Assembly (NCBI GenBank): GCA_017469785.1
Contig: JAFUFU010000001.1
Span: 59,109 to 123,108 of the forward strand
DNA length: 64,000 bases
Direction: 5' to 3'
From: Treponema sp.
GTDB taxonomy: Bacteria; Spirochaetota; Spirochaetia; Treponematales; Treponemataceae
The translations under genes were made by a program, and so were the position numbers. Under the pieces are notes generated by a model that saw nothing but the letters and a program-made list of their open reading frames with translations, was not told the DNA's origin and did no database searches. Numbering within the stretch: position 1 is the first letter of the stretch; the number at the start of each line of letters is the position of its first letter. Positions 2,353 through 52,507 of this stretch are shown one piece after another.

Positions 2353-2393
2353 TTGTCTTATAATCAAATAATGATATAATTATGATATATCAT
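2353..2393 (+). promoter_or_regulatory. Promoter and probable operator of the Phd/ParE pair
   Basis: A -35-like TTGTCT at 2353-2358 is followed after 16 bp by a perfect -10 TATAAT at 2375-2380. Just downstream, ATGATATATCAT (2382-2393) is a perfect 12-bp palindrome. Phd-type antitoxins usually autorepress at such palindromes, so this is the likely operator (inference). Confidence 0.5.
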
Positions 2394-2411
2394 TTACAAA
2401 AGGACGAAAAT

Positions 2412-2675
2412 ATGCCTGTAATCAGAGCAAGTGCAGACTTGCGGAACAAGTACTCTGAAATCTCGAATTATTGCCACACCACAAACGAACCTGTTTTTAT
2501 CACAAAAAACGGACAGGGCGATTTGGCTGTTATGAGCATTGCCCAATACGATTTTCTTTTGGAAAAAATTGACTTATATTCAAAATTAGCAGAAGGAGTT
2601 AAGGATTTCCAGACTGGTAAACACGAGCCGTTTGACAAGGCAATATCCGATATTAGAAGCAAGCTGGGAATTTAA
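2412..2675 (+). CDS. Type II antitoxin, Phd/YefM family
   Basis: The 87-residue protein begins MPVIRASADLRNKY, has the central Phd/YefM signature (EPVFITKNGQGDLAVMS) and a hydrophilic C-terminus. The family forms a DNA-binding N-terminal dimer and wraps its C-terminus around the toxin. An upstream in-frame ATG at 2382 exists, but AGGACG directly before 2412 and family length favour 2412. The stop codon shares its last base with the ATG of the ParE-like toxin, so the two are translationally coupled. Confidence 0.88.
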   Translation: MPVIRASADLRNKYSEISNYCHTTNEPVFITKNGQGDLAVMSIAQYDFLLEKIDLYSKLAEGVKDFQTGKHEPFDKAISDIRSKLGI

Positions 2676-3004
2676 TGAACGCTATCGAAATCTCAGAATC
2701 TGCAAAAACAGATATTGAAGAAATATTAACCTACATAAAAGATTCTCTTCAAAATCCCAAAGCGGCTTCAAACCTTGCAGACCTGCTTACACAAGAGATT
2801 TCTTCTTTAATAAAGCATCCATTCAGCGGCTCCCCTGTACAAGATGGATTCCTTTCAGATTATGGATTTCGTTTTTTACTTGTAAAAAATTTCAAAGTTT
2901 TTTATATCGTTTCAGAGCATAAAGAAGATAAAGAAATCAGAATAATCCGTGTTTTATATGCCCGCCGAGATTATGCGGCAATATTGAACGAAGAATTGAA
3001 GTAA
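2675..3004 (+). CDS. Type II toxin, RelE/ParE family
   Basis: The 109-residue protein has the RelE/ParE fold pattern. An N-terminal helix (ISESAKTDIEEILTYI) is followed by a hairpin with HPFSGSP, then the strands FRFLLVKNFKVFYIV and IRIIRVLYARRDY. Toxins ending in RVLYARRDY generally belong to the ParE/YoeB side of the family; gyrase poisoning versus mRNA cleavage cannot be told from sequence alone. It overlaps the antitoxin by one base. No truncation is seen, so the module is probably functional. Confidence 0.88.
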   Translation: MNAIEISESAKTDIEEILTYIKDSLQNPKAASNLADLLTQEISSLIKHPFSGSPVQDGFLSDYGFRFLLVKNFKVFYIVSEHKEDKEIRIIRVLYARRDYAAILNEELK

Positions 3005-3137
3005 CAGCCGCTGCATTAATGATTGCAGGCTTCCTTGCCTCCCGCTTCATTCTTTTCACCTTATCACAAAATGATAGACTCCCCATGTTATAATCCTCAT
3101 AAATACATGATTTGACACATGTTTTCAGGAGGAGCAC

Positions 3138-3326
3138 ATGCCTATTCTTAAGGATCTTGAACAAGAAGAAAAATATGAAATGCGACGGAAAAATCTCGAT
3201 AGGGAATTCAAGTGGACACAAGGACAAATTGAAAAACTCCGTGCCTTGAACAGCGGGCTCTTAAAAAAAGCAGGAAGAACTTGTCTCGCAAATGAAAAAG
3301 GTCTCAGATTTGCTTACGCGGCTTGA
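3138..3326 (+). CDS. N-terminal part of a frameshifted two-repeat protein
   Basis: This frame has an excellent ribosome binding site (AGGAGGAG 7 nt before ATG). It encodes 44 sensible residues ending in a predicted helix (LDREFKWTQGQIEKLRALNS), then meets a run of seven A (3263-3269). Beyond the run it drifts into an unlikely tail. Removing one A gives GLLKKQEELVSQMKKVSDLL, running straight into the next feature. The helix resembles residues ~172-200 of that downstream protein (LDSKFEWSEENIKKILAIN), so the intact protein would have two related halves. Function is unknown. Confidence 0.6.
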   Translation: MPILKDLEQEEKYEMRRKNLDREFKWTQGQIEKLRALNSGLLKKAGRTCLANEKGLRFAYAA

Positions 3327-4299
3327 AAGCGAAGGCTTTGATTTTCTGCATGGCTTCAAAGTTATCGGAGTCATCGAGTTTTGGAAAGCAGAGCTGGACG
3401 AGGAGGATTTTGGCAAATCTAAATTTTCCGCTTCTGAGGACTTGGAAAAATGGCGCTATATATCAGAAGAAGCAAATTCTCGGTATTGGTCGCTGATTTT
3501 TGATTCAAACACAGGCGATTTTATGACATTCTCAAAGATATTATTGTCGGATGCAATCGATACGCCCTATAACTTTAATCTTCCAGAAGAAAATAAGGTA
3601 AAGCTTTGCAGTTTTCTTATCTATTTTTATGAGTATATTTCAAAAGCAAGTTTTTCCGACCTCTTGGAGTGCAGCGCGGATGACTTTTTCCCATGGGTCA
3701 TCGTAGAAATAAACTGTGACACGGTAGAACTGAAGGAAATTTACGACCATTGTCTGTTCGATGAAAGTCCTTTTCCATCAGTTTTGGAGGACAGAAAGAA
3801 TGCCCTTGACAGCAAATTTGAATGGTCAGAGGAGAACATCAAGAAAATTTTAGCCATCAATGCAATCGTCTGGAAAAAATTCAATCAGGCGGAAGAAAAC
3901 TTAAAACGACTGGCGAGTGTTTTTCGTGAACTTTCTAAGACCGATTCCTTCTTTGAACCTTACGGAATTGAGGCAGAAATCCGCTATCAAGGCAAGAAGC
4001 CGACTGATATTGCAAGCATCGAAATGCAGAAACTCTTGTGTCAGTATACGCTGGACTTTGGCACATATCTGGGGATTAACGAAAATATTCCAGAAGTTGA
4101 GATGGGCAATGTCAACAAAAACGAAGATTTGAACTGGAATTTTGAGGTGTATGCAGACCATTTCAATGAAGATCAGAAAAAAATCCGCTTCAACTATTTT
4201 ATGCACAGGGTCTTCATCGATGGCCCAACATTCAGCCTTGAGGATTTGGTCCGCATGGAAGAAGAAGGATTTTACACCAGATACGAGATTAATTTTTAA
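3292..4299 (+). CDS. Unknown protein, main part of the frameshifted two-repeat gene
   Basis: The frame codes for 335 residues from ATG 3292, but no Shine-Dalgarno sequence precedes that codon, and the true start is probably 3138 with a shift at the A7 run. The protein is acidic and soluble, with no signal peptide or membrane segment. Residues ~168-225 repeat the organisation of the N-terminus: an RKN-LD-F-W-I-K-L-N helix, then a long amphipathic helix, then a GF/YG segment. I do not recognise the family. It is followed after 12 bp by another unknown gene with a strong RBS, so the two probably form an operon. Confidence 0.65.
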   Translation: MKKVSDLLTRLESEGFDFLHGFKVIGVIEFWKAELDEEDFGKSKFSASEDLEKWRYISEEANSRYWSLIFDSNTGDFMTFSKILLSDAIDTPYNFNLPEENKVKLCSFLIYFYEYISKASFSDLLECSADDFFPWVIVEINCDTVELKEIYDHCLFDESPFPSVLEDRKNALDSKFEWSEENIKKILAINAIVWKKFNQAEENLKRLASVFRELSKTDSFFEPYGIEAEIRYQGKKPTDIASIEMQKLLCQYTLDFGTYLGINENIPEVEMGNVNKNEDLNWNFEVYADHFNEDQKKIRFNYFMHRVFIDGPTFSLEDLVRMEEEGFYTRYEINF

Positions 4300-4311: not shown

Positions 4312-4818
4312 ATGAGAAAACGACGATATGTTCGATATGCTATGAATGAAACTGAAGAAAAAAACACCTACGGCATCAAAATCTCAGGGCAGCCTCTTGA
4401 TGGTGAGACGCAAACAATAATCACTTTCGATATGCTTGAAAAACTGCACACAATTCTCTGCTACGATTACGAGGACGGAAAGCCTTGGCATGACATGACC
4501 TGCGTAATGGAGCTGATTTTTCAGGAAATAATTTATAAGGATGACAAGTGCATAAATTCGGACGGGGTACATTTTTCAAAAATAAGATACTTGTACCCGC
4601 ATCCGTGGTCGCTGCTCTCTGATTTTCATGATTTTGCGGAGAATTTTACTTTTTACTGCCCCTGCCTTACCGCTGTCCGAATGGATTTGACGGCAAATTA
4701 TTTCCGGCACGACTACAAAGACGAGGGGATTTTCTTTGATGAGTTTGAAAGTTTCAATTGCACCATAAAGCACAAAAAACGCTACTTCCCGCAGAATCCC
4801 GTCATGCCGGATGATTAA
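4312..4818 (+). CDS. Hypothetical protein
   Basis: A protein of 168 residues preceded by AAAGGAGAA 8 nt before the ATG. It is rich in aromatic and acidic residues and has no signal peptide, membrane segment or recognised catalytic motif. The spacing of 12 bp behind the frameshifted gene suggests co-transcription. The pair (large repeat protein plus a 168-residue acidic partner) has the look of an accessory cassette, but no function can be assigned. Base composition is more AT-rich than in the surrounding housekeeping genes. Confidence 0.65.
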   Translation: MRKRRYVRYAMNETEEKNTYGIKISGQPLDGETQTIITFDMLEKLHTILCYDYEDGKPWHDMTCVMELIFQEIIYKDDKCINSDGVHFSKIRYLYPHPWSLLSDFHDFAENFTFYCPCLTAVRMDLTANYFRHDYKDEGIFFDEFESFNCTIKHKKRYFPQNPVMPDD

Positions 4819-4854: not shown

Positions 4855-5982
4855 CTACCATAATCGTAATCGCCTAAAGTCCAGCGTGAACGGGCTTGAA
4901 TAGTAGTATCCTTTTTTGAATGTGTCATACTCAATCGGGGCACATAAATCGACTCTCATCATACTTATATCGCGATAAAGAGAAGGAATACTTGCCGAAG
5001 TAACATTTTCCATGCATACATCCAGAAAATCTGTCAGTTTCGGGAATGATTTCATTCGAATCATATCATCAATTATTATAATTCTCCGTACCATATCCCA
5101 GCTTGATGTTTTTCCTTTTCTCGTCGTTTGCTTAGGGCTGTCCTTGCAGACAATTTCGCGCCCGTCATGATGAAAACCTGCGCACATGTAGAAAGCCCAT
5201 TTACTGACTTCGAGGTCTTCAGAAAATCCTTCATAGATAACTTCTTTGAGTGATTCACAATTCATAAATGCAAGGTGATTAATTTTTCGGACACTTGCAG
5301 GAATTATGACTTTTTCCAGAGATACCATATCGCTAGAAAGCGAGGTTTGCCTGTAAAACTCATAAAATGTATTTGTTCCGATTACCTTAATTTCTTCCGG
5401 CAGCCGTAATTCCGCTTTGTCAAAATGTAAGCGAAAAAGAGAAACCTGATGTATTTTATTTACAACAAAACCGTCAATAACTGTATATGCGGGATTTGAA
5501 AGCAAAACATCGGCAAGAAATTTCGGTTTTAAAGTCATCACCTTTTTGTTTTTGCCGAAAAATGTCAGATTTACAAAAGTAATATTTCCACCCACACGAA
5601 TTGATTTGCACTTTGTCGTAAAACAACACGCAGAGATGTCTGTTACGCTTTCTGGAACAACGATTTCTTCAATAGCTGGACAGTGCTTAAAGTCAATGAC
5701 GAATTCTTTAAGTTTATTGGGAAACTTAATATCTTTGAGTGCCTTGCAGTATGAAAAGGCATTAGCCGTTATCTCCGTCACTGAATCGGGAATGATAATC
5801 TTTTCAATCGTCGTGTTCGGTTCAATATCATCAGCAAAAGTAAAATCCGCGATTTTATTTACGCCATCTGGAATCGTGACAACAGGCTCATTTCCCTTGT
5901 AACGACGGAGCACATGCTTTTTGGAGCCAGTTTTTTTGCTAGTGAATGTTTTGATGATAAAGTTAGGGTCGGTAAATATCAT
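4855..5982 (-). CDS. BspA-like leucine-rich-repeat (LRR_5) protein
   Basis: The 375-residue protein carries several LRR_5 units of the treponemal BspA type: IPDGVNKIADFTF, IPDSVTEITANAFSYC, VPESVTDISACCF and IPASVRKINHLAFMNC. I chose the start at 5982 because GGAGG precedes it by 6 nt; a frame extension upstream adds residues without an RBS. There is no signal peptide, so unlike surface BspA proteins it is probably cytoplasmic. The C-terminal ~100 residues are not repeats. Such proteins mediate protein-protein contacts; the partner is unknown. Confidence 0.8.
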   Translation of the reverse strand: MIFTDPNFIIKTFTSKKTGSKKHVLRRYKGNEPVVTIPDGVNKIADFTFADDIEPNTTIEKIIIPDSVTEITANAFSYCKALKDIKFPNKLKEFVIDFKHCPAIEEIVVPESVTDISACCFTTKCKSIRVGGNITFVNLTFFGKNKKVMTLKPKFLADVLLSNPAYTVIDGFVVNKIHQVSLFRLHFDKAELRLPEEIKVIGTNTFYEFYRQTSLSSDMVSLEKVIIPASVRKINHLAFMNCESLKEVIYEGFSEDLEVSKWAFYMCAGFHHDGREIVCKDSPKQTTRKGKTSSWDMVRRIIIIDDMIRMKSFPKLTDFLDVCMENVTSASIPSLYRDISMMRVDLCAPIEYDTFKKGYYYSSPFTLDFRRLRLW

Positions 5983-6055
5983 GGGGCGGCCTCCTTGTAT
6001 TCCCGTTAACCATAAGAGCTTCCTTTGGATTAGAAGCACAGAGTTTAATTAAAAA

Positions 6056-7953: not shown

Positions 7954-8922
7954 ATGCCGAATGAAAACCTTACCCAAGACAATCCCGTGACCCACCTTGA
8001 GATGGGCGCTCTTCCCGGTGCCGCCACCAACAAGAGCTACAAGGACAGCCTCTTCCGTCTGATTTACAGCGGGAACGATGAGCGAAGCCGAAGATGGCTC
8101 CTCTCCCTCTACAACGCCGTCAGCGGCCGGAACTACACCGACACCAGCGGCATGAGGATCACGACGATTGAGAACGTGATTTACCTGACCATGAAGAACG
8201 ACCTTTCCTTCCTCCTGGACTCCCAGATGAACCTCTTCGAGCATCAGAGCACCCTCAACCCAAACATGCCCCTGCGCGGCCTCATCTACTTCGGTCAGCT
8301 CTATCAGAACGAGGTCAAGCGGCGGAAGAAAAACATCTACGGCGAGGCTCTCATAAAGATTCCGTCGCCGCGCTTCATTGTCTTCTATAACGGCGAGAAA
8401 AGCCTGTCGGATGTCTCAAAGCTTAAACTTTCTGTAGCATTTGAAGTTCCCGACACGACAGGGGAATTTGAATGGACAGCCACCGTGATAAACATCAACC
8501 GGGGAGCCAATGAGACTCTTCAAAAAAAGTGCCAGTCGTTGTATTATTATGCAGAGTTTGTTGCGCGGGTCAAGGAGAACCAGAAAAGCGGCATGGAGCC
8601 ACCCGAATCCATCAACGAGGCCGTAAACTACGCCATCCGGAAGAATTTTCTGGAAGGCTTCTTTGAGGAGCAGAAAATGTACATAACGAACAGCTTGCTT
8701 ACGGAATTCGACCAGGAGCTTCACGACCAGTCCTGCATGGAGCTGGGATACGAGCGGGGCCGAGCTGAGGGAATTAAAGAAGGTGCGCAGCAGAATGCGG
8801 TGGCGAACGCGAAGAATTTGCTCAGCATGAATCTTGGAACTCCCGAACAAATAGCACAGTGTTGTTCCCTGCCACTTGAACAAGTCCTTGCCCTAAAAGA
8901 AGAACTCGCAGTACACCCCTAG
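7954..8922 (+). CDS. Rpn-family recombination-promoting nuclease / PD-(D/E)XK transposase-like protein
   Basis: The 322-residue protein matches the Rpn/PD-(D/E)XK group common in treponemes. The N-terminal YKDSLFRLIYS is followed by a nuclease core NDLSFLLDSQMNLFEHQST, where the D and the E-x-Q serve as metal ligands and the catalytic position. Then come RFIVFYNG and a C-terminal RGRAEGIKEGA segment typical of the family. AAAAAGGAG precedes the ATG. Members cleave DNA and stimulate RecA-independent recombination. Its first half is GC-richer than its AT-rich surroundings, consistent with a mobile history. Confidence 0.85.
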   Translation: MPNENLTQDNPVTHLEMGALPGAATNKSYKDSLFRLIYSGNDERSRRWLLSLYNAVSGRNYTDTSGMRITTIENVIYLTMKNDLSFLLDSQMNLFEHQSTLNPNMPLRGLIYFGQLYQNEVKRRKKNIYGEALIKIPSPRFIVFYNGEKSLSDVSKLKLSVAFEVPDTTGEFEWTATVININRGANETLQKKCQSLYYYAEFVARVKENQKSGMEPPESINEAVNYAIRKNFLEGFFEEQKMYITNSLLTEFDQELHDQSCMELGYERGRAEGIKEGAQQNAVANAKNLLSMNLGTPEQIAQCCSLPLEQVLALKEELAVHP

Positions 8923-9099
8923 ACTCGTGGTGAAATTTATTATGCAGATTACGGTCAGATAGACAACATAGTTCGCAAAATTGCAATGAACGAGGTGATT
9001 ACAGGCGAACGCCCAGCAATCACGGACATTCACGATATGTGTAAGTGTGAAAAAATTGACAATCCTGACGGCTCAAGACGCATGGGATTTTGTTTGTAG
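8923..9099 (+). pseudogene. Orphan C-terminal fragment of an unknown protein
   Basis: Directly after the Rpn stop codon and in the same frame, about 58 codons stay open (TRGEIYYADYGQIDN ... RMGFCL) and end at TAG 9097-9099. There is no start codon with an RBS at the N-terminus, but the sequence has normal protein character. It is likely the end of a gene whose beginning was removed when the Rpn gene arrived. A metallophosphoesterase remnant follows 9 bp later. Confidence 0.4.
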
Positions 9100-9108
9100 G
9101 AGGGCCGA

Positions 9109-9526
9109 ATGATTTGCATAACCGGCGATACACATAACACCGAAGACATGTCGAATCTCTCATCGCGAAGCCATGAGTGACGACAAAGCCTGGCGCAAGG
9201 CTCACGAATCCTGGTGGGAACAGGAAGAATGGAGTGAAGAAGAAAAAGAAACCTGCTTAGCAAAAATAAAAGAAAACAACAGTTTTGACTATGTTCTGTC
9301 TCATACAGGCCCGTCAGTCGGCATCGCCCTTACGGATGATTACTTCTGCAATAAAGAAAACCAAAAGCAGCTCCATCGCGATTCTAATGCAGTTTTCAAT
9401 GACAAAATCGATTCTCTCATTTCATATAAAAAATGGTTCTTCGGGCACTGGCACAGCGATTGGGGCTACGAGCATTACAAGGAATCCAAATACATTCCGC
9501 TCTATCATCAGGGAATTGTAATTTGA
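9109..9526 (+). pseudogene. Decayed metallophosphoesterase
   Basis: An AGGAGGG site precedes ATG 9109, which encodes MICITGDTHNTEDMSNLSS, the first metal-binding motif (GDTH) of calcineurin-like phosphoesterases. The frame stops at 9180. From 9173, another frame supplies the C-terminal half (SWWEQEEWS, YVLSHTGPS and FGHWHSDWG). The GDFG and GNHE motifs between them are missing. The gene has therefore suffered an internal deletion of perhaps 100 codons plus a frame change and should be inactive. Confidence 0.75.
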
Positions 9527-12131: not shown

Positions 12132-12581
12132 ATGCCAATAAGATTAATCGGATCAATCATTCTTTTGGTTCTCGTCACGATTTTTGCGGGCGTGAATCTT
12201 GACAACAAGTGCGACATCACTTTCATTTTCTACACCTTTGAGCAGGTGCCGGTTTTTATGACCGTGATTGTCTCTTTCGCAATCGGGGCAATCCTCATGC
12301 TGCCCTTCACCCTTGGCCGCAAAAAGAAAAAGACTCAGAAAGCAGCTCAAACACAGAAACCTTCTGACACGCAGAATAAGCCAAAAGAAGAATCAAAAAC
12401 GCTTTTCGATTTTAAAATCAAGCGTGAGGCAAAGCCTGAAAAAACAAAAACAGAAAATCCTCAGAAAAATAAAAAATCCCTGTTCGGATTCAGAAAAGCC
12501 AAAGCTGATTCTGAAAACACCGCCTCTGCGACATCCGGGAACCAGGCAGACTCTTCCGAAAGCACAGGGGAACCGGTATGA
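12132..12581 (+). CDS. LapA-domain (DUF1049-like) membrane protein
   Basis: The 149-residue protein has two N-terminal membrane spans (LIGSIILLVLVTIFAGVNL and VFMTVIVSFAIGAILML) separated by a short loop, as in LapA-domain proteins. A long Lys/Glu/Ser/Thr-rich cytoplasmic tail follows. AAAAGGAG lies 8 nt before the ATG. It overlaps the thiamine pyrophosphokinase gene by 4 bp (ATGA). The role of LapA-like proteins in treponemes is not established; in E. coli they work in lipopolysaccharide homeostasis. Confidence 0.7.
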   Translation: MPIRLIGSIILLVLVTIFAGVNLDNKCDITFIFYTFEQVPVFMTVIVSFAIGAILMLPFTLGRKKKKTQKAAQTQKPSDTQNKPKEESKTLFDFKIKREAKPEKTKTENPQKNKKSLFGFRKAKADSENTASATSGNQADSSESTGEPV

Positions 12582-13234
12582 GCGAAGAGTCATTCCCGCC
12601 CATAAAGCGGGAATCCCGCTGCGTCATAATTGGGGCAGCCCCTATCAAAAACTATAAGAAAATTCGCTCGTTTTTAGGCAATGATGATTTCGTCATTGTC
12701 TGTGACGGCGGATTAAATCATCTTCGCAAGCTCAAAGTCAAGCCGAATTTAATCATCGGCGACTTCGATTCCCACAAAAATCCTCATTCAAAAATCGAAA
12801 CCATCGTCCTTCCCCACGAAAAAGACGACACCGACTCAGTTTTTGCCCTCAAAACGGCACTTTCCCGCGGTTACAAAGATTTCCTTTTCATCGGAATGAT
12901 TGGCGCGCGTCTTGATCACGGACTGGGAAATCTCTACATGCTCGTCAAATGCCAGAATGAGGGGGCAAAAGCCCTGGTGATTGATGATTTTTCTGAACTT
13001 GAGCTTGTGGGCAAAGAAGAAAAATCTATTTCAGACAAGTACGCTTATTTTTCTTTGCTGAACATCACCGGTACAGCCCGCGGAATCACGATAAAAGACG
13101 CGCTCTATCCCCTTGAAAACGCTGAAATCACGCAAGAATACCAGTACGGCGTAAGCAACGAAGTTCTTTCTGGAAAGACAGCCCTCGTCTCAGTGAGCGA
13201 AGGAAATCTTCTCCTAGTGAAAGTCTGGAAATAA
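12578..13234 (+). CDS. thiN: Thiamine pyrophosphokinase
   Basis: The 218-residue protein shows TPK motifs: VIIGAAPI, FVIVCDGGLNHL, PNLIIGDFDSH, LPHEKDDTDSVFAL and MIGARLDHGLGNL. It transfers pyrophosphate from ATP to thiamine to give thiamine pyrophosphate. The N-terminus carries about 14 extra residues before the first strand. The DNA coding for them contains a perfect hairpin (ATTCCCGC at 12592-12599, GCGGGAAT at 12607-12614) of a family seen elsewhere in the window. No TPP riboswitch was recognised upstream. Confidence 0.93.
   Translation: MSEESFPPIKRESRCVIIGAAPIKNYKKIRSFLGNDDFVIVCDGGLNHLRKLKVKPNLIIGDFDSHKNPHSKIETIVLPHEKDDTDSVFALKTALSRGYKDFLFIGMIGARLDHGLGNLYMLVKCQNEGAKALVIDDFSELELVGKEEKSISDKYAYFSLLNITGTARGITIKDALYPLENAEITQEYQYGVSNEVLSGKTALVSVSEGNLLLVKVWK
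12592..12614. repeat. ATTCC-type hairpin inside the 5' end of thiN
   Basis: An 8-bp perfect stem with a 7-nt loop, flanked by C/C as in CATTCC...GGAATC. Sister hairpins occur at 47784-47803 and 55413-55433. Here the repeat is translated as the start of thiamine pyrophosphokinase. Confidence 0.6.
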
Positions 13235-15334: not shown

Positions 15335-16891
15335 TTAGAACTTTGCCTTTCGCAAGCGGACTTCTTCAATATTCTCGCTGAAGAGCTCACGCAAGTCGTT
15401 CAAGCCAAGTGCCATAAGCGCCATGCGGTCAATACCCATGCCCCATGCCAGAACCGGACAATCCAAGCCCTGAGCCTTTGTAACTTCCGGACGGAAAATG
15501 CCCGCTCCGCCAAGCTCAAACCAGCCCAAAACAGGATGTTTAATGTGAACCTCAACAGAAGGCTCCGTGAATGGGAAGTAGCCCGGAACATATTTAACTT
15601 CAGTTGCGCCTGCGACTTCTTTTGCGAACATCTCAAGCATACCAAGCAAAGTGCGCAAGTTTACATCCTCACCGGCGATGATTCCCTCTGTCTGATAGAA
15701 GTCGCTCAAGTGAGTAGCGTCAACCTTGTCGTAGCGGAAACAGCGGGCAATACCAAAATATTTGCCCGGAACTTCTGCCTTGTGAAGCTGATGTGCCGAA
15801 AGAACAGTTCCCTGTGAGCGCAAAACCAGCCTTCGCGTGAATTCATGGTCAAAATCGTAGTTCCAGCCACGGCTTCCTGTGTTGCCGCCGTTTTTGTGGG
15901 TTTCGGCTACATTTGTAAGCCAAGGCTCTTCGATTTCTTTTGCGTGGGTCGGATTTTTGATTCGATATACATCGTGAATGTCGCGGGCTGCGTGGAACTG
16001 CGGCATAAAGAGTGCGTCGCCGTTCCAGAATTCAGTCTCTACAAGCGGGCCGTCATATTCCTGAAATCCCAAAGAACAGAGCTTGTCCTTAACATGCTCC
16101 AAGAACTGAACATAAGGATTCGTGCGACCCGGAATGATTCGTGCCGGCGGAATTGCAATATTGTAGCCACGGAAAGTGCCGTTCTTCCATTCGCCAGAAG
16201 CAAGCATTTGCGGAGTGACGGCTCCCAACTCTTCGCCAGTGATTCCTGCCTTTTTGAGGGCGGCGACTACATCAGCAGCCTCTTTGTTGAGCTTGTAAAC
16301 GACTGTCTCGCGCTCAATGATTTTGAAAGGAGAATCTGCCGCACCGCGTTTTTTGGCATAGTTCGTGATGACTTTCTGCTCGTCCGCGTTCAATGAAGCG
16401 TTGTCCAGCTGACCGTTTTCGGCTTTTGCGGCACGCTCGAACAAGTCTGTAGCGATTTTGATATTGGCAGGGATTTCCGCGCCTGAATATTCAGCCTTTT
16501 TTTCGGCATTCATTTTGAGAACGCCGGCTTTTGAGAGCTGACCGAATGCCGAACCGACATCCTTCTGCTCAAGGCCTGTGCCTGCTGCGATTTCTGGAAG
16601 GAGTTTTGCTCCCTTTTCTTTTACAAAGTTGATTATTCGGACTTCAGGGATGCCGTCTTTTGCGTAAGCTCGTCCCAAATCAGTGATTTCGTAGAATGTG
16701 TGGGGAGTTTTGCTCACAACAGAGAGCAATTCTTTTCCGCCAAGCCAGCTGAATGCCTGGTTACAGTGACCTTCTTTGTAGTCTAATTCTTTCTGAAGTT
16801 TTTCTGATGTTAATTCGTCTTTTGCCGTGTAGTTAAGAAGAACTTTGATTTCAAGGGGATGAAGGTTTTTAATGATGTTCTGAATGTCCAT
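15335..16891 (-). CDS. pheS: Phenylalanine-tRNA ligase alpha subunit (archaeal/spirochaetal type)
   Basis: The 518-residue protein has N-terminal winged-helix repeats (LHPLEIKVLLNY, KLQKELDY, ITDLGRAYAKDG) in place of the short coiled coil of ordinary bacterial PheS. The class II catalytic core follows: motif 2 region HDVYRIKNP and TVLSAHQLHKAEVPGKYFGI, and motif 3 GMGIDRMALMALGLNDLR. This long form is the archaeal/eukaryotic type that spirochaetes are known to carry. The partner pheT is not adjacent. It charges tRNA-Phe as an alpha2beta2 tetramer. Confidence 0.95.
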   Translation of the reverse strand: MDIQNIIKNLHPLEIKVLLNYTAKDELTSEKLQKELDYKEGHCNQAFSWLGGKELLSVVSKTPHTFYEITDLGRAYAKDGIPEVRIINFVKEKGAKLLPEIAAGTGLEQKDVGSAFGQLSKAGVLKMNAEKKAEYSGAEIPANIKIATDLFERAAKAENGQLDNASLNADEQKVITNYAKKRGAADSPFKIIERETVVYKLNKEAADVVAALKKAGITGEELGAVTPQMLASGEWKNGTFRGYNIAIPPARIIPGRTNPYVQFLEHVKDKLCSLGFQEYDGPLVETEFWNGDALFMPQFHAARDIHDVYRIKNPTHAKEIEEPWLTNVAETHKNGGNTGSRGWNYDFDHEFTRRLVLRSQGTVLSAHQLHKAEVPGKYFGIARCFRYDKVDATHLSDFYQTEGIIAGEDVNLRTLLGMLEMFAKEVAGATEVKYVPGYFPFTEPSVEVHIKHPVLGWFELGGAGIFRPEVTKAQGLDCPVLAWGMGIDRMALMALGLNDLRELFSENIEEVRLRKAKF

Positions 16892-52475: not shown

Positions 52476-52507
52476 ATCATGCTTTTGAACAGCAGGAAAA
52501 ATGCAAA

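Follow-up and report, generated by a model that had tools for sequence, protein, structure and literature searches.

The gene examined here, called A, is most probably a frameshift-inactivated member of a two-domain protein family which was recently exchanged together with its partner gene B, the loss of its frame being a young event in a decaying accessory island. It lies in a window of 64,000 nucleotides of the Treponema sp. contig JAFUFU010000001.1, where the following features were located (all coordinates are those of the window).

3127 to 3133, forward strand: Shine-Dalgarno sequence AGGAGGA of gene A (duplex -10.3 kcal/mol, spacing 4), identical in the UBA3813 locus L012.
3138 to 3326, forward strand: 5' piece of gene A, a 62-codon frame that is the family frame only as far as the A run; the single-half HMM matches its residues 9 to 45.
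3263 to 3269, forward strand: run of seven As (A7) at which the frame breaks; six As (A6) in the intact UBA3813 orthologue.
3292 to 4299, forward strand: 3' piece of gene A (335 aa), comprising what remains of the first half, as far as about 3705, and the second half, from about 3775 to 4296.
4312 to 4818, forward strand: gene B (168 aa), which recurs as the partner of two-half A genes and lies no more than about 1.1 kb from A in all six A2-type loci with contig room.
3041 to 7328, no strand: block 97.1% identical to UBA3813, read as a recently exchanged segment, with A, B, the leucine-rich-repeat gene and genes for an amidohydrolase-like and a membrane protein.
4855 to 6039, reverse strand: BspA-type leucine-rich-repeat protein inside the exchanged block.
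8953 to 9096, forward strand: remnant of an AAA ATPase (last 48 residues; tblastn 3e-25), a protein of 555 aa in genome G015, where it stands beside a detached FlhA membrane-domain gene, and a 57-residue tail in UBA3813.
9173 to 9526, forward strand: truncated metallophosphoesterase, 117 aa long against 253 aa in UBA3813.

The frame opening at 3138 behind a good ribosome binding site does run into seven As, as the sequence-only reading had described, and beyond the run the sense of the protein carries on in the following frame, which reads QEELVSQMKKVSDL, into the frame at 3292. In Treponema sp. UBA3813 the syntenic locus (L012, the sole locus found in a scan of genome contigs) carries six As (L012 5973 to 5978) within one open gene of 391 codons having the same ribosome binding site and ATG as gene A of the window. 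Since the intact relative has A6, the A7 copy of the window is the derived one, and the comparison supports gene A being one protein split at the run. An intact homologue at the same genomic place and a frame broken in the window would, as far as sequence goes, make the window copy a pseudogene. Comparison with orthologues from related genomes, which had been proposed as a check, yielded further intact two-half genes. Seven were aligned, UBA3813 and six more (34 to 39% identity to the UBA3813 protein), the double-domain proteins of G133 and G223 being excluded as too divergent.

The product of intact gene A is a soluble-looking protein of 391 aa made of two diverged copies of a ~ 175-aa domain. 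That the protein has two related halves had been suspected from a helix in front of the run which recurs downstream; the recurrence stands but lies 202 residues away, the distance of ~ 170 given earlier being the count from codon 3292. An HMM of 29 single-half domains, with no two-half rows (its members were gathered with profile A1, of which four of the 11 rows are two-half), matches both halves of the UBA3813 protein (3.1e-18 and 7.7e-33) and, in the window, the 62-aa piece as far as the run (domain E 1.6e-9), these E-values being computed for a database of one. As both halves match a single-half profile, the two-half layout goes well beyond what chance would give. Furthermore, a quick tree built from 47 domains groups the seven first halves into one clade and the seven second halves into another (SH-aLRT 99 and 97), hence the simplest origin is one duplication followed by fusion.

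A search with the window protein found matches in 8 of 97 genomes, its own included; the match in G012 (E 0.0015, inside a 773-aa frame) is probably due to chance. With an 11-row half-domain profile, matches were obtained in 33 of 200 genomes of the genus and in 11 of 296 genomes sampled across the phylum (six of them from the genus, own included). Numerous other family members are single-half proteins of about 180 to 200 aa. In two loci (L064 4897-6184 and L065 5041-6229) a tandem pair of single-half genes overlaps by 11 bases, which looks like the two halves before their fusion, and in G119 (L067 5150-6634) ankyrin repeats are fused to one A domain in a 494-aa protein. Two single-half members (L005 in G020 and L030 in G105) have each lost one and the same Trp codon of the FxWTPE motif, invariant elsewhere, to a different stop (TGA and TAG), the rest of the frame being well conserved (pN/pS 0.15 and 0.17).

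The earlier impression of an unrecognised family was confirmed, no Pfam, NCBIfam, PHROGs or PDB family being recognised; the gene A family and partner B are absent from the protein-family libraries searched. In Pfam the best E-value was 0.011 among 11 half-domain members, 0.091 for the window A piece and 0.12 for B, none convincing, and NCBIfam gave zero matches for the window A pieces and B. The best PHROGs value (0.027) was likewise unconvincing, the best PDB value for A was 0.23 with none for B, and relatives of A or B were not found in viral contigs searched with profiles A2 and A3. AlphaFold2 modelling of the UBA3813 protein with the window row reached a mean pLDDT of 34.5, too low to build on; the second-half domain with three rows reached 54.5, and none of its 73 Foldseek matches had E <= 0.001. 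Judged by title among the matches listed, no paper deals with A/B family genes or with detached export-gate genes as their neighbours.

Gene B accompanies two-half A in the window, in G117 (taken as UBA3813) and in G015, G111, G122 and G225, with varying order and orientation and with one gene between A and B in G225; G170 and G172, in which B was not seen, were left out of this count as their contigs end 310 and 132 bases from A. Among 200 genomes, full B matches were found only in these six, G225 having a second full B on a 5-kb contig (C7) without A. Remnants of B occur in four of the ten genus genomes having a B match and, together with the two nonsense-broken single-half A genes, this indicates that loss is common in the family. 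The pN/pS of B against UBA3813 (0.93) comes from five changes only and is uninformative. A reading of A as toxin and B as antitoxin was dropped, since single-half A genes are widespread without a B match.

Besides full-length copies, detached genes for FlhA and FlhB domains of the export gate are found among the neighbours of A family members. Such FHIPEP (FlhA) and Bac_export_2 (FlhB) genes adjoin two-half A/B in G015, G122, G111 and G225 and single-half A in G130 and G045, and FliG_C, AAA and MoxR/VWA-type proteins are present in some of these islands. Detached FlhA membrane-domain, FlhA cytoplasmic-domain and FlhB cytoplasmic-domain genes, some of them extended, were seen at L148 (G015 C3 1-20000), L152, L061, L062, L060, L163 and L164, and FliG_C proteins at L148 and L161, in addition to full-length FlhA/FlhB copies. 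The commonest recurrent families in a clustering of the neighbours were WYL/LRR proteins in nine genomes (also at six control places), B in five, the FlhA membrane domain in three, and a metallophosphoesterase, a nameless protein and Sel1 in four genomes each.

Gate matches were sorted by hand, leaving out full-length ones and those which we take to be FlhX-type. Five of the 13 A loci then have a detached gate gene no further than 6 kb away, against 0.18 expected under uniform placement (5 against 0.08 at 2 kb, 7 against 0.28 at 10 kb), the nine genomes concerned having been chosen partly after their neighbours had been seen and accessory genes clustering anyway. At least three FHIPEP matches occur in 4 of 8 genomes with two-half A against 11 of 192 others (p 0.0012), and at least two in 5 of 8 against 47 of 192 (p 0.03), counts which contig breaks can inflate. 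In the other 25 family-positive genomes the FHIPEP link was not found (3 of 25 against 12 of 175, p 0.28), and in the window's genome and G117 the only FlhA match is one full-length FlhA, a detached one not being found. Given genomes picked post hoc, inflatable counts and the lack of such a gene in the window's genome, the link to detached gate genes is a lead and not a demonstration.

As to function, the likeness to the FHIPEP/Bac_export_2 export gate is one of neighbourhood, detached domain genes adjoining A and B in relatives, whereas A and B themselves match no such profile. We commit ourselves weakly to intact A being an adaptor or regulator of detached FlhA/FlhB export-gate proteins, which is possible but rather doubtful. 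More speculatively still, A and B might both be adaptors in an undescribed treponeme accessory system made from detached flagellar export and switch parts (the FlhA membrane domain alone, the FlhA cytoplasmic domain, the FlhB cytoplasmic domain with a further domain, FliG_C, AAA and MoxR/VWA-type proteins), of which the window would hold the decayed remains. The main alternative, a serious one that still falls short of being probable, is that intact A and B are immunity, antitoxin or defence-type genes and not partners of an export gate. Both are patchy, acidic (pI 4.8 and 5.3) and exchanged between species, and their neighbours include Phd/ParE, SUKH, Abi_2, DUF3990 and GmrSD genes. A PADLOC comparison gave 54 matched models for 125 neighbours and 21 for as many control proteins, but models and not proteins were counted, several models may fall on one protein and the single control genome was G117, which has no detached FlhA match, so the comparison is not decisive. 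Neither A nor B matched a PADLOC profile, and they belong to no Pfam or NCBIfam family, which argues against this alternative.

The block shared with UBA3813 extends over 4.3 kb and contains four gaps, one of 2 bases ahead of A, one of a single base at the run, one of 15 bases within A and one of 9 within B, the one at the run being the only coding gap that is not a multiple of three. Synonymous divergence (pS) from UBA3813 is 0.032 for A, 0.011 for B, 0.04 to 0.14 for the three other block genes and 0.02 to 0.06 for two genes just beyond, and rises to 0.25 to 0.33 in three flanking genes, two of them presumably metH-like and miaB-like. Among 18 orthologue pairs outside -381 to 12039, 14 are at 0.57 to 0.90, two near 1.0 and two low (0.14 at 12578-13234 and 0.27 at 15335-16891). 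With pS graded in this way and two low outer pairs, the low divergence fades out without a sharp edge. We read the low-divergence block as probably reflecting recent exchange with a UBA3813-like lineage. The body of A differs from UBA3813 by 6 synonymous and 8 nonsynonymous changes (pN/pS 0.32), so that the break, if real, would be young. Directly 5' of A, at 2382-3004, stands a Phd/YefM-ParE toxin-antitoxin pair, where the window and the UBA3813 locus do not align.

Nearby genes are truncated or reduced to a tail, as listed for the metallophosphoesterase and the AAA ATPase, which indicates that the island is decaying. An ORF at 7954-8922 has 322 aa in the window and 164 aa at the UBA3813 locus, so decay is seen on both sides. 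In the scenario we favour, a small accessory module of A and B would move among treponemes, the window copy and its neighbours would have been recently exchanged with a UBA3813-like lineage, and a one-base expansion of the short A run would then have broken the frame of A and inactivated this copy. Pseudogenes frameshifted at a homopolymer within exchanged accessory islands are a known kind of decay. The present case resembles them in its one-base change of an A run, its intact relative and its decayed neighbours, and differs in that the libraries searched do not contain the two-domain family to which the gene belongs.

We infer that the extra base is real and the loss functional, which is likely. 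The main rival, which keeps a small but appreciable probability, is an assembly or sequencing error, the real gene A being intact and encoding the full two-half protein. The break is a one-base change in a homopolymer, the commonest class of error, and the 335-codon 3' frame is open and constrained with no relaxation seen; such a clean frame is expected equally of a young break or of a false one. However, A is the only one to require two frames among the UBA3813 proteins that have an orthologue-like match on the contig, the genome being sampled only (522 proteins from 666 kb, of which 27 were comparable, 25 in one frame over >85%, one split and one neither). The contig also holds 53 A7 and 9 A8 runs in 82 open frames of at least 150 codons, 62 in all, which is suggestive only as the frames were chosen as open. 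Moreover, the metallophosphoesterase further along was cut by a larger deletion and not by a homopolymer error.

It is very improbable that the 3' frame has its own start and forms a separate gene, an N-truncated A beginning at ATG 3292, even though it offers 335 clean codons and its overlap with the upstream frame might permit reinitiation. The frame had been described as having no ribosome binding site, and this agrees with a Shine-Dalgarno score of -4.3 at a spacing of 15, a score equalled or bettered by 19% of 264 internal ATGs. Of 19 ATG starts taken for comparison, 42% score no better, so the score alone cannot exclude a start, and the spacing weighs more heavily. Orthologues starting at 3292 with a ribosome binding site, named beforehand as evidence against slippage, were not found among the seven aligned, and the product would miss the FxW helix that is conserved in the first half.

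The sequence-only reading had also suggested that the run may be a functional slippage or phase-variation site, and this was not borne out. A contingency site flipping A on and off in the population is very improbable, although the run is A7 in the window and A6 in UBA3813 and although Treponema pallidum does phase-vary through homopolymers (PMC7864442). The tracts described in that account, as far as it goes, are poly-G (tprL and others), for tprL a promoter tract of 7 to 11 Gs, and resemble the present case in a homopolymer length difference in a treponeme gene, while the run of the window is poly-A, short, within the coding part and unconserved. The run is present only in the window and, as A6, in UBA3813 and is absent from the six other aligned orthologues, A7 is ordinary on the contig and not the long, unusual tract of a contingency locus, and the two other broken family members carry nonsense codons. 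The longest homopolymer found in the window, an A10 at 52505, lies outside the listed ORFs of at least 60 aa.

The heptamer A_AAA_AAA is a -1 slippery site, and A runs can slip. Recoding, in which transcriptional slippage or ribosomal frameshifting would give some full-length A, is the least probable reading: the site is unconserved, the -1 frame stops after 8 codons so that the favoured shift does not give the product, and E. coli polymerase, for which productive slippage in vivo is described from 7 Ts upward, is described there as preferring poly(T) and inserting threefold more often than deleting (PMC6260861), whereas restoring the frame of A requires the loss of one A or the gain of two, and counter-selection on A/T runs, by the account available, shows at a length of nine bases in a large share of genomes (PMC1088944).

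Taken as an ordinary break, the frameshift in A is a caution against taking each short A run as a switch. The occurrence of A and B beside detached FlhA/FlhB genes in several relatives is the most interesting loose end, and the A family, which matches no library searched, has a two-half form that goes back to one duplication and keeps a conserved partner in B, deserves naming.
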